From assembly GCA_002087915.1 (NCBI GenBank), contig LWDP01000067.1:1-10202 (forward strand): 10,202 bases of DNA. The letters are read 5' to 3'. Below the pieces are notes generated by a model, which saw only the letters and a program-made list of their open reading frames with translations, had not been told where the DNA came from and made no database searches. Position numbers and translations under genes: made by a program. This document shows, one piece after another, positions 415 to 8,891 of this stretch. The first letter of the stretch is position 1. Every line of letters begins with the position of its first letter. This DNA comes from Enterospora canceri. Its lineage: Eukaryota > Microsporidia > Enterocytozoonidae.

Positions 415-1539
415 TTACTCACGTCCAACCAGCCTCTCCTTCTTCTCCTTCTTCTCGAACTCGAATTCGTGCTCGAATCCAAGCTGAATCTCCTCAACCA
501 CGCCAAACTGGACGAACAGTCGCTCTGCAACTGCCCTGCATTCAGCCAGGTTGAATGTTCCACCAACTACGCGAATATCCGGCTCATTGTGCTCCGTGTA
601 AACCCATTTCTGGGTGGCTGGCCAAATCAGCGTCTCAAAGCGCGTCTCAAGCGACCGAGCAAACTCGGCCGAGCTGTCGCGGTACCTGCTTCCCGCATCC
701 CGCCTCATCCGAACTGCCTTCACCATCTCCTTCNTCTCCTTCTTCTCCTTCTTCTCGAACTCGAATTCGTGCTCGAATCCAAGCTGAATCTCCTCAACCA
801 CGCCAAACTGGACGAACAGTCGCTCTGCAACTGCCCTGCATTCAGCCAGGTTGAATGTTCCACCAACTACGCGAATATCCGGCTCATTGTGCTCCGTGTA
901 AACCCATTTCTGGGTGGCTGGCCAAATCAGCGTCTCAAAGCGCGTCTCAAGCGACCGAGCAAACTCGGCCGAGCTGTCGCGGTACCTGCTTCCCGCATCC
1001 CGCCTCATCCGAACTGCCTTCACCATCTCCTTCTCAAGGGTCATTTCTATTTTGATCACATCAAACAGCTCCCTGAAGGCGTGGGCGTTCTCGACGAAGG
1101 CGTCTGGGTTCCTCTCAGGCGGATTCCACGCACTCAGCCTGCTCGTGTCAAACACGGACCCGTTGAACAGGTTGAACGCGTAGATGCCCTCCAAAATGAT
1201 GATTTCCGGCCTACTGTTTCTGACTCGCTCGCTTCTCTCCCGATGCGTCGTGAAGTCGTACCGCTTCTCCACCACGAACTCGTCTCCATCCGCGTATCCG
1301 TGCAGGGCAGTGGCCAGCCCAGCCCAGTCCAGGGCGGCTGGGTTGTCGAAGTCGTACGAATCGGCCACCGTGTCGCGGTAGTTGAACTCAACTCCTCGAT
1401 AGTAGTCGTCAAGGCAGATCCGCTTCACGTTTCGCGTAATCTCCAAGTTCCCAGTCAAATAGTCGCCAAATGCCGTCTTTCCGGTGCACGAACTGCCCTG
1501 GATCAGCACCACGGCCGTCATTTTGCTCTCTCGTCCCAT
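415..1539 (-). CDS. Uridine(-cytidine) kinase, internally duplicated at an assembly gap
   Basis: Role (family knowledge): ATP/GTP-dependent phosphorylation of uridine/cytidine in cytosolic pyrimidine salvage. Seen: P-loop GSSCTGKT (residues 15-22), LDDYY (43-47), YDFDNPAALDW (62-72), YDFTTH (94-99), ILEGIYAF (115-122), a LID-like MRRDAGSRYRD (178-188), WPATQKWVY (206-214) and DIRVVGG (221-227). The start at 1539 has CCCC two bases upstream; a second in-frame ATG at 1521 would trim six residues and fits the paralog's N-terminus less well. As written the frame has 374 codons, but about 100 C-terminal residues (LID to the acidic-basic EFEKKEKKE tail) are present twice in frame, separated by one codon containing the N at 734. 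Removing one copy leaves an uninterrupted 274-aa kinase, the usual size for the family. I infer that the real gene is 274 aa. It lies next to its paralog and ends 160 bp before it. Confidence 0.85.
   Translation of the reverse strand: MGRESKMTAVVLIQGSSCTGKTAFGDYLTGNLEITRNVKRICLDDYYRGVEFNYRDTVADSYDFDNPAALDWAGLATALHGYADGDEFVVEKRYDFTTHRERSERVRNSRPEIIILEGIYAFNLFNGSVFDTSRLSAWNPPERNPDAFVENAHAFRELFDVIKIEMTLEKEMVKAVRMRRDAGSRYRDSSAEFARSLETRFETLIWPATQKWVYTEHNEPDIRVVGGTFNLAECRAVAERLFVQFGVVEEIQLGFEHEFEFEKKEKKEXKEMVKAVRMRRDAGSRYRDSSAEFARSLETRFETLIWPATQKWVYTEHNEPDIRVVGGTFNLAECRAVAERLFVQFGVVEEIQLGFEHEFEFEKKEKKERLVGRE
435..1033. repeat. Two identical 299-bp copies flanking a single N (probable scaffold join)
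   Basis: Bases 435-733 and 735-1033 read the same, with no difference seen by eye, and the only ambiguous base of the window (734) sits exactly between them. Both copies begin in a run of the 9-mer TCTCCTTCT, which codes for the Glu/Lys tail of the kinase on the minus strand. The same 9-mer lies at the end of the second copy (1026-1034). A single n between contig ends that really overlap is the mark some scaffolders leave. A true tandem duplication mediated by the 9-mer is the alternative. Confidence 0.9.
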
Positions 1540-7241: not shown

Positions 7242-7321
7242 TTACCCATCTAATTAGTTACTTATCTAATTAGTTACTCATCTAATTAGTTACTCATCTA
7301 ATTAGTTACCCATCTAATTAG
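7242..7321. repeat. Five tandem 16-bp units, TTAC(C/T)CATCTAATTAG, in a divergent promoter region
   Basis: Units start at 7242, 7258, 7274, 7290 and 7306, followed by one decayed unit (7322-7337). They differ only at two positions (C/T), and each contains the 8-bp palindrome CTAATTAG. The array fills much of the 192-bp gap (7180-7371) between the divergent starts at 7179 and 7372, so it lies in the only place both promoters can be. The unit also contains TTACCC, the same string that precedes the start codons at 7179 and 5930. Besides this, the gap shows only the CCC motifs next to each ATG. Confidence 0.9.
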
Positions 7322-7371
7322 TTACCTACCTATATTCATAATAATAAGTTACATTCCACTCATTGTACCCC

Positions 7372-8619
7372 ATGCCATCCTGGTACATTGAAAACCATCT
7401 TGGCCTCTATTCACCGATTCTACTCAAATCAATCAGACAAAATGGATCAGAATGTGAGACAATGCCAACAGTCTACGATCACAAGTGCATAGAGCAGACA
7501 TGTGCAAAAATGACAGTATTGAAGATAAATTCACCAGCAGAGGCAACAAAGGTCAAGGGATACGTCACGAATGGATCAGCACGAATTCCAGTTGACTTGA
7601 TGGAGAGCAACGTCCTCTACCTCCAGAGCTGCTTCGACCTTCTCCACCTCTTCGTCTACTTCGTAGACGCAGCCAATGGCGGAGTATTGCGCGTATTCAG
7701 CTGCAAAGTGGCAGCTTGTGGTCGATGGGGCGTCCTGGACGTCAAGGCCCATGAAGTTGGTTTCTTTGGTGATAAATCATTTGTGGTGGAAAATGATGAG
7801 TATCTTACAATTCAGCTGGAAGTAGAGGAGATGAGAACGAAACAGTACCACTACAGAATAGATTGTGATGATAGGAGAGTGGATAATAGACCAATTTGTA
7901 GTGGATTCAGCATGCTCTTCTATGGGAGACTGTACAGTTTGGTGGAATTCAGGTGTCCATTTTGTCAGGTGAAACACGGCAATTTGAGTCACCTGAAAAT
8001 GCACATAAATCACCAGCACCTTTATTTTAGGGCAGAAATAGAAGAGAAGACAGTCAAAATAGTGAAGAATGAGACAGAAACAGAAACAAGCAGGGAGTTC
8101 ACGTTTGTAAGCAGGATGTATCGGGGTAGAAATGCACAGATCATTGGGAAGAGGAACATGCGCCACTATAAGTTCATCAAGGTGGACGAGAAGGAGTTTA
8201 GGGGGCGTATTTATGAAATATACCACTATAGCGAGTATTTGGTTAGGGTATTGAAGTATGGGCTGGAACACAGGATGCTGATTGAGAAGGAGAGTTTGAC
8301 AGGTGGAAAGGTGAATGAGGCATTGGCAATTCACTTGAATAGCAGAATGGGAGACTACAAAATGAGAGAGGAAGAAAGGAGGATAATGGAAGAGTGGAAC
8401 AGGCTGAGGATTGAGGGAAGAGGGGCATTGGAGGCAGCGTACGAGGTGTTGGGGCTCTTTGGAGTCACAGAGGAGGTGCTTGGGCTGCTTGAGATTCTCT
8501 ACACGCAGGGAGTGGTGACTTCTCTTGATTTGATGCAGGCACTAAACAGGTACGAAGCAAAGAAGGAGACGACTGGTGATAAAAAGGTGTTCGTCCACTC
8601 TGACACACGTGCATCATAA
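7372..8619 (+). CDS. Suz12-like zinc-finger / VEFS-box protein (PRC2 subunit candidate)
   Basis: Role if correct: Suz12 is the scaffold of Polycomb Repressive Complex 2, which methylates H3 lysine 27; its VEFS box activates the E(z) methyltransferase. Seen in 415 aa: a single C2H2 finger C195-x2-C198-x12-H211-x4-H216 (CPFC ... HINHQH), with the same spacing as the Suz12 finger and an aromatic-rich strand right after it (LYFRAEI). In the C-terminal quarter there is EEERRIMEEWNRL (333-345), aligning with the E-K-E-V-M-x-L-W-N core of the VEFS box, then a helical stretch LEAAYEVLGLF ... LGLLEILYTQGVVTSLDLM (353-388), like the VEFS end. The N-terminal 180 residues are beta-rich (SCFDLLHLFVYFVDA, VLRVFSCKVAACGRWGVL), as in Suz12 orthologs. 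The start at 7372 is set by CCCC directly before the ATG. The match rests on motif order and spacing, not a database search; an unrelated C2H2 protein is possible. Confidence 0.68.
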   Translation: MPSWYIENHLGLYSPILLKSIRQNGSECETMPTVYDHKCIEQTCAKMTVLKINSPAEATKVKGYVTNGSARIPVDLMESNVLYLQSCFDLLHLFVYFVDAANGGVLRVFSCKVAACGRWGVLDVKAHEVGFFGDKSFVVENDEYLTIQLEVEEMRTKQYHYRIDCDDRRVDNRPICSGFSMLFYGRLYSLVEFRCPFCQVKHGNLSHLKMHINHQHLYFRAEIEEKTVKIVKNETETETSREFTFVSRMYRGRNAQIIGKRNMRHYKFIKVDEKEFRGRIYEIYHYSEYLVRVLKYGLEHRMLIEKESLTGGKVNEALAIHLNSRMGDYKMREEERRIMEEWNRLRIEGRGALEAAYEVLGLFGVTEEVLGLLEILYTQGVVTSLDLMQALNRYEAKKETTGDKKVFVHSDTRAS

Positions 8620-8637
8620 GTTGCATATGCTCTTAAT

Positions 8638-8891
8638 GGACTGGATGTGCAGAACATGACTGACCCCAGTCCATGAGGACTCTGGCTTAATAGAACTACG
8701 GGTAAATTTTGATAGAACTGAATTAGAGTAAAATTAGAAGTTGGGAATTAAATTGTTCGTTCAACCGCACACGCCTGCACCATGAAATACAGACGCGTTT
8801 TGTTGAATGGGCTGTATGAAACCTGATTGATCTCGTGCTTAGTAAAGCACGGACTTACCGGATCCATGGGGTAAATTTTAGATACTTTTTT
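8638..8891 (+). ncRNA. Candidate structured RNA ending in a T6 run
   Basis: The 273-bp gap 8620-8892, the longest in the window, has no reading frame of note but many complementary segments: GGACTGG (8638-8644) with CCAGTCC (8666-8672), enclosing ATGT/ACAT; TTCAACCGC (8760-8768) with GCG-TTTT-GTTGAA about 30 bases on; ATACAG (8787-8792) with CTGTAT (8812-8817); and a 7-bp perfect hairpin CGTGCTT-AGTA-AAGCACG (8834-8851). It ends in TTTTTT (8886-8891), a Pol III stop signal. TGGCTTAATAG (8683-8693) fits the A-box consensus, and GTTCAACCGC (8759-8768) is near the B-box. GGGTAAATTTT occurs at 8700 and 8869. I could not match it to tRNA, 5S, SRP, RNase P/MRP or snRNA signatures. Extent and strand are inferred from the T-run; simple non-coding spacer is the alternative. 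Confidence 0.35.

Follow-up and report, generated by a model that had tools for sequence, protein, structure and literature searches.

A candidate, very diverged Suz12 subunit and a likely PRC2 core in a microsporidian genome

SUZ12 of humans and other vertebrates is the closest described counterpart of the protein studied here, and a highly divergent orthologue, MES-3, has been described in C. elegans (PMC9253717). In Microsporidia, the telomere-to-telomere paper on Encephalitozoon lists one 'Histone-lysine N-methyltransferase Clr4/EZH2' together with HP1 and RBBP4, from which H3K9/CLRC machinery was inferred; in a word search, 'polycomb' and 'H3K27' were absent from its main text (PMC10158259). 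E(z)-group genes have already been reported in Microsporidia, several of which have no SET gene, according to PMC9692433; therefore, an E(z) gene in this group is not new. Such parasites are described as sharing a pattern of missing epigenetic homologues (PMC9252792). By word search, 'microsporidia' was absent from the main text of the PRC2 surveys and reviews PMC9018016, PMC10638273, PMC8788455 and PMC7348808. Among the papers listed by searches of an open-access library, which does not extend to subscription papers, none was found to describe EED or Suz12 from Microsporidia.

We analysed a window of 10,202 nucleotides, i.e., the whole stretch of DNA, in an assembly of 2,242,678 bases in 75 contigs. 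Its SSU rRNA is microsporidian and matches RF02542 over the full model (1210.7 bits, top of its Rfam clan). The features are collected in Table 1. Because the same assembly also carries E(z) and EED matches, we consider it likely that the gene at 7372-8619 encodes the Suz12 scaffold of a microsporidian PRC2 in a very diverged form. Judged by sequence alone, the product has one finger and shows signals of the Suz12 type; its Suz12 identity is not proven, the VEFS assignment of its C-terminal part rests on a motif only, and it is the best Suz12 candidate found in the assembly.

Table 1. Features of the candidate Suz12 gene and its upstream region (positions in the window)
Feature	Positions	Strand	Basis
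Candidate Suz12 subunit of PRC2	7372..8619	+	415-aa ORF, ATG to TAA; Zn_SUZ12 best Pfam match, under its cut-off
Possibly the C2-like part of Suz12, rich in beta strands (residues 50-170; low confidence)	7519..7881	+	Predicted strands at residues 63-129, model pLDDT 37
LFYGRLYS (residues 182-189)	7915..7938	+	MAFFT pairing with IFYQFLYN immediately before the SUZ12 finger; block score 22
C2H2 finger C-x2-C-x12-H-x4-H (residues 195-216)	7954..8019	+	Pfam scan and spacing comparison
EEERRIMEEWN (residues 333-343)	8368..8400	+	MAFFT pairing with GEKEVMKLWN in the VEFS part of SUZ12; shuffle test
Helical tail (residues 344-407)	8401..8592	+	VEFS-like in predicted helices only, models pLDDT 36 and 37; block score only 8
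16-bp tandem repeat TTACTCATCTAATTAG, 5.2 copies	7242..7325	.	Lies about 50 bp before the ATG of the candidate gene

The candidate resembles SUZ12 in its finger spacing, in an FYxxLY block ahead of the finger, in the motif E...[IV]M..WN (first Cys to Trp, 147 residues in the candidate and 167 in SUZ12) and in being encoded in the same genome as E(z), EED and RBBP4. However, it is shorter (415 aa versus 739), has no VEFS profile match and no recognisable N-terminal binding segments, and in the VEFS part MAFFT left gaps that are 18 to 20 residues long. As described for MES-3, there is no obvious similarity to SUZ12 while the partners are known (MES-2, the EZH2 counterpart, and MES-6, the EED counterpart, in the worm), and the VEFS-like part is shortened. 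Profile-profile and structural comparison established the identity of MES-3, whereas the models of the candidate are too poor for this; moreover, the profile link of MES-3 lies in the N-terminal region, whereas that of the candidate lies in the finger.

The finger sequence, CPFCQVKHGNLSHLKMHINHQH (beginning CPFC), has the same spacing as human SUZ12 residues 450-471, an exact match that bears out the Suz12-type finger claimed in the preliminary description. The EEERRIMEEWN segment had been placed about 120 residues later, which holds because its start at residue 333 is 117 positions past the last finger His. Among 24,736 Pfam models, Zn_SUZ12 was the top match (E 4.7e-5; next models 0.012 and 0.027), and other zinc-finger models reached 0.027 or worse. 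The Zn_SUZ12 score was 23.5 bits against a curated cut-off of 28, covering only model positions 23-51 of 70. Across the whole assembly (E <=10), this model matched in two places, the candidate (1.8e-4) and a second gene (0.009) whose own Pfam scan favours general C2H2 models; two of the 14 control genomes, each from a prokaryote, also gave a match under the cut-off (E <=10). Pfam scans of the pieces gave no support for a C2-like reading of residues 50-170. PF17003 (Actin_micro), considered as a misnamed orthologue family (E 0.012 here), was rejected because the true member in this assembly sits on another contig at E 5.9e-60.

The VEFS-Box profile gave no match at E <=10 in the candidate, either in the whole protein or in pieces, although 13 of 13 SUZ12 controls were positive; when the assembly was searched with it in six frames, no match appeared, and the control genomes were likewise silent. 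Of the Suz12/VEFS identity originally proposed, the finger spacing and the WN motif stood, whereas no VEFS profile match was obtained for the 415-aa product, an outcome that the preliminary description had listed as refuting. We also fetched the best 120 of 1022 proteins (E <=1) from a search with a query alignment including human SUZ12; by our reading of the names, 115 carried a vertebrate species and 5 carried none, and the remaining 902 matches may include nearer relatives of the candidate. An HMM built from 96 of these 120 proteins (24 were dropped, with a cut-out motif missing or the motifs too far apart) was run against the candidate, 142 ORFs and 2000 shuffles. The finger of the candidate scored 0.1 bits, which is noise level; with the VEFS part, the candidate was absent from the results and shuffles reached 8.2 bits. 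A tail-only alignment of the candidate was misplaced and was excluded from the analysis. BLASTP against human SUZ12 returned the finger only (E 0.5). In a collection of 5.8 billion proteins, searched by a method that scores only proteins with short exact words in common, the whole candidate shared words with 2002 proteins, none of which reached E 1e-3, and residues 175-415 with 1029, none of which reached E 10. The AlphaFold models, of residues 175-415 alone (pLDDT 36.2) and of the whole candidate with 13 SUZ12 rows (pLDDT 37.3), were both too poor for a judgement of the fold and were treated as unusable.

The WN motif was carried by 120 of the 120 fetched SUZ12 proteins and, among the 236 ORFs compared, by the candidate alone; the finger spacing was shared by 3 of the 236, the candidate among them. 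This set includes retrieved WD40 loci (30 of 48 matches) and is not the whole genome. In 200,000 shuffles of residues 215-415, a strict EEERRIMEEWN-type pattern arose once and the loosest form, M-x2-W-N, 241 times, with the patterns composed after the motif had been noticed. Pairwise BLOSUM62 alignment to human SUZ12 was weak: the finger part reached a local z of 2.8 (73/5000 shuffles) and a global z of 2.9 (66/5000), and the VEFS part a local z of 2.4 (148/5000) with the global score at chance level (1215/5000). Unaided, MAFFT with the candidate fragment and human SUZ12 placed finger on finger and YKMREEERRIMEEWN on FSDVNEGEKEVMKLWN; with 13 SUZ12 proteins, it additionally aligned LFYGRLY to the finger-proximal IFYQFLY. 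For the N-terminal RBBP4-binding segment, MAFFT aligned LYSPILLKSI to LIAPIFLHRN-type letters, whereas the block test favoured another site with a score of 4. Five human SUZ12 blocks, chained in order, gave a score of 90, which was reached by none of 600 shuffles (maximum 72) and none of 68 decoy ORFs (maximum 60; 250-800 aa, from the retrieved loci and not a random genome sample). The score of the finger and WN block alone was likewise reached by 0/600 shuffles and 0/68 decoys; the chain without the finger was equalled by 19/600 and 1/68. The N-terminal block (score 4) and the last helices (score 8) contributed little or nothing. The blocks were picked after the alignments had been seen; therefore, the block score counts as support and not as a blind test.

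The partner search of the same assembly, proposed in the preliminary description, yielded E(z), EED and also RBBP4, which bears out the PRC2 inference made there. A six-frame SET search found two proteins, one EZH2-like and one MLL/SET1-like. The E(z) protein (471 aa) matched EZH2 in a phmmer search of the PDB at 6.2e-28 over CXC and SET, with the best MLL chain at 9.2e-17; pairwise, 16 of 18 CXC cysteines were kept and 73 of 201 aligned residues were identical. In Pfam, its SET domain was above the cut-off and no CXC model was reported. The second SET protein was closest to MLL/SET1 (3.5e-23), followed by SETD2 (1e-17), SUV39H2 (1.6e-11) and EZH2 (2.9e-11). No SUV39-type (CLRC, Clr4) SET enzyme was found in the six-frame search, which a strongly diverged or split SET domain could escape, and no SETD2-type enzyme was found in the assembly SET search.

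In human lymphoma, changes at Tyr641 of EZH2 boost trimethylation. Residue 366 of the E(z) protein, aligned with Tyr641 of EZH2, is His (the position was derived from alignment coordinates, and a read error is possible), which would fit strong trimethylation. The codon-641 variants of EZH2 reported earlier are all given as gain of function in PMC3237460, which names Y641H once.

The gene of the EED candidate, a 350-aa WD40 protein, lies 796 bp away from that of E(z). For the C-terminal 192 aa of this protein, EED occupied all of the first 24 PDB rows (1e-5 to 1.2e-4), and RACK1 followed at 0.013; for the whole protein, other WD40 chains filled the best 60 of 482 rows, with EED not among them, and its best Pfam model was WDR3, under the cut-off. 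With human EED as the query, it ranked first of the 236 ORFs (56.2 bits versus 45.2 for the next). In a rough global alignment that is poor in this region, the aromatic cage residues of EED faced other letters (Tyr148 against Leu, Phe97 against a gap, Trp364/Tyr365 against Phe/Lys); the cage looks altered and a normal H3K27me3-reading cage is not favoured, although no firm conclusion is drawn from this alignment. RBBP4, which is common to complexes other than PRC2, was found at E 1.1e-90 with CAF1C_H4-bd above the cut-off. Because E(z), EED and RBBP4 were found independently of 7372-8619, the prior for an existing Suz12 is higher. These gene matches make it very likely that the assembly encodes a PRC2 core, and the original wording of a 'remnant' is too weak, since candidates exist for all four core subunits.

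As side observations, a 189-aa ORF, by eye a membrane protein, lies between E(z) and EED, and contig C2 carries these two genes (locus L048, 1609-4873) and the sole SSU rRNA gene found (L047) in a stretch of about 15 kb.

The histone context was also surveyed. A canonical-type H3 (L035) has ARTKQ at K4, ARKT at K9 and KAARKT at K27 compared with human H3, and a small insertion after K9 shifts the K27 numbering. Its tail between K27 and the alpha-N helix diverges from human around K36. Beside it, there are two diverged H3-like proteins (L036 and L037), one of which may be CENP-A; by eye, L036 begins PRTKQ and has no K27 context. An HP1-like protein is present; its chromo and chromo-shadow domains each score above the cut-off. 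Searches of the assembly for JmjC, BAH and RAWUL (PRC1) returned no match; of the 14 controls, 1, 1 and 0, respectively, were positive, each under the cut-off, so that the lack of a match is no proof of absence.

Two other readings of the gene were weighed against a diverged Suz12. The product might be an unrelated single-finger C2H2 nuclear protein, e.g., a transcription or RNA-processing factor, with the Suz12 spacing and WN arising by chance and the E(z)-EED pair having another partner. The negative VEFS profile, the SUZ12 HMM at noise and the restriction of profile support to the finger, in a class where fingers readily cross-match, all speak for such a protein, as does the recurrence of the spacing in 3 of 236 ORFs, the candidate included. 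However, the Zn_SUZ12 E-value is more than two orders of magnitude better than that of any other zinc-finger model, the combined block chain stands above all 600 shuffles and 68 decoys, and an E(z)-EED pair is expected to have a Suz12-type partner, for which the candidate is the best found in the assembly; we therefore regard an unrelated finger protein as improbable.

It could also be a functional stand-in that does not descend from Suz12, like Bnd1 of Cryptococcus, i.e., a PRC2 scaffold with a C-terminal part of independent origin. According to PMC7348808, a functional homologue may have taken the place of SUZ12 in certain fungi, e.g., C. neoformans, and the missing VEFS match would agree with this. 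Against such a stand-in, the FYxxLY block is followed by the finger and then by the WN motif, as in SUZ12, and we rate it as the least probable explanation.

For a diverged Suz12, we propose that the finger-containing half of the candidate would hold RBBP4 and that its C-terminal helices would clamp E(z) to EED; from established PRC2 biology, E(z) would be inactive without this scaffold. Within PRC2, E(z) would methylate H3K27, perhaps K9 too, at chosen genes, leaving some genes silent, and the HP1-like protein would be a possible reader of these marks. The one other SET protein found is MLL/SET1-like, and PRC2 would therefore be the sole writer of repressive H3 methylation found in the assembly. 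As no SUV39-type enzyme was found, HP1 would read PRC2-made marks or none. The E(z) of Paramecium, Ezl1, methylates both H3K9 and H3K27 (PMC6586856); therefore, a dual writer is conceivable here. Both Paramecium and the present organism are unicellular eukaryotes with an E(z)-type enzyme, whereas K9 activity has been demonstrated there, by that account, and is a mere possibility here. A more doubtful possibility is that a single PRC2 has taken over the entire repressive histone code: built on a 415-aa Suz12, with an E(z) that has His at the Tyr641 position, it would write both H3K27me3 and H3K9me3, feed HP1 and completely replace Clr4/SUV39.

Several observations concern the surrounding DNA. 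The 16-bp unit upstream of the candidate gene had five matches assembly-wide (<=1 mismatch), all at 7242-7325; each unit contains the palindrome CTAATTAG, and the array is possibly a binding array for a regulator. Downstream, the spacer of about 260 bases at 8620-8880 has stretches that are self-complementary by eye and matched no Rfam family at E <=1. Single N sites in the retrieved loci were in 10 of 10 cases followed by an exact repeat of the upstream bases, 164 to 299 bases long (119 where one locus ends early), at window 434-1035 and in L006, L011, L012, L021, L030, L046 and L047. These exact repeats behind every single N therefore suggest that overlapping contig ends were joined in the assembly. 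One such join lies in the ORF at 415-1539 (minus strand), a uridine kinase by eye, and its 300-bp repeat is probably an artefact and not a duplication.

Genome reduction is extreme in Microsporidia, which serve as models for it. If the reading of the gene as a diverged Suz12 is true, a tiny genome retains Polycomb-type gene silencing: a PRC2 core would have been kept in a 2.24-Mb assembly, implying that facultative silencing was worth retaining when nearly all else was shed. Like the present genome, that of Encephalitozoon is microsporidian, listed with one enzyme named 'Clr4/EZH2', HP1 and RBBP4; here, by contrast, an E(z)-type enzyme is accompanied by EED and a Suz12 candidate, the two enzymes being set side by side by description only. 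The gene content found here thus points to PRC2 and not to H3K9 machinery, and a retained PRC2 core also calls into question the H3K9 (Clr4) reading of the Encephalitozoon SET enzyme (PMC10158259). A retained PRC2 would be a testable claim on the possible control of stage-specific genes in microsporidian parasites.
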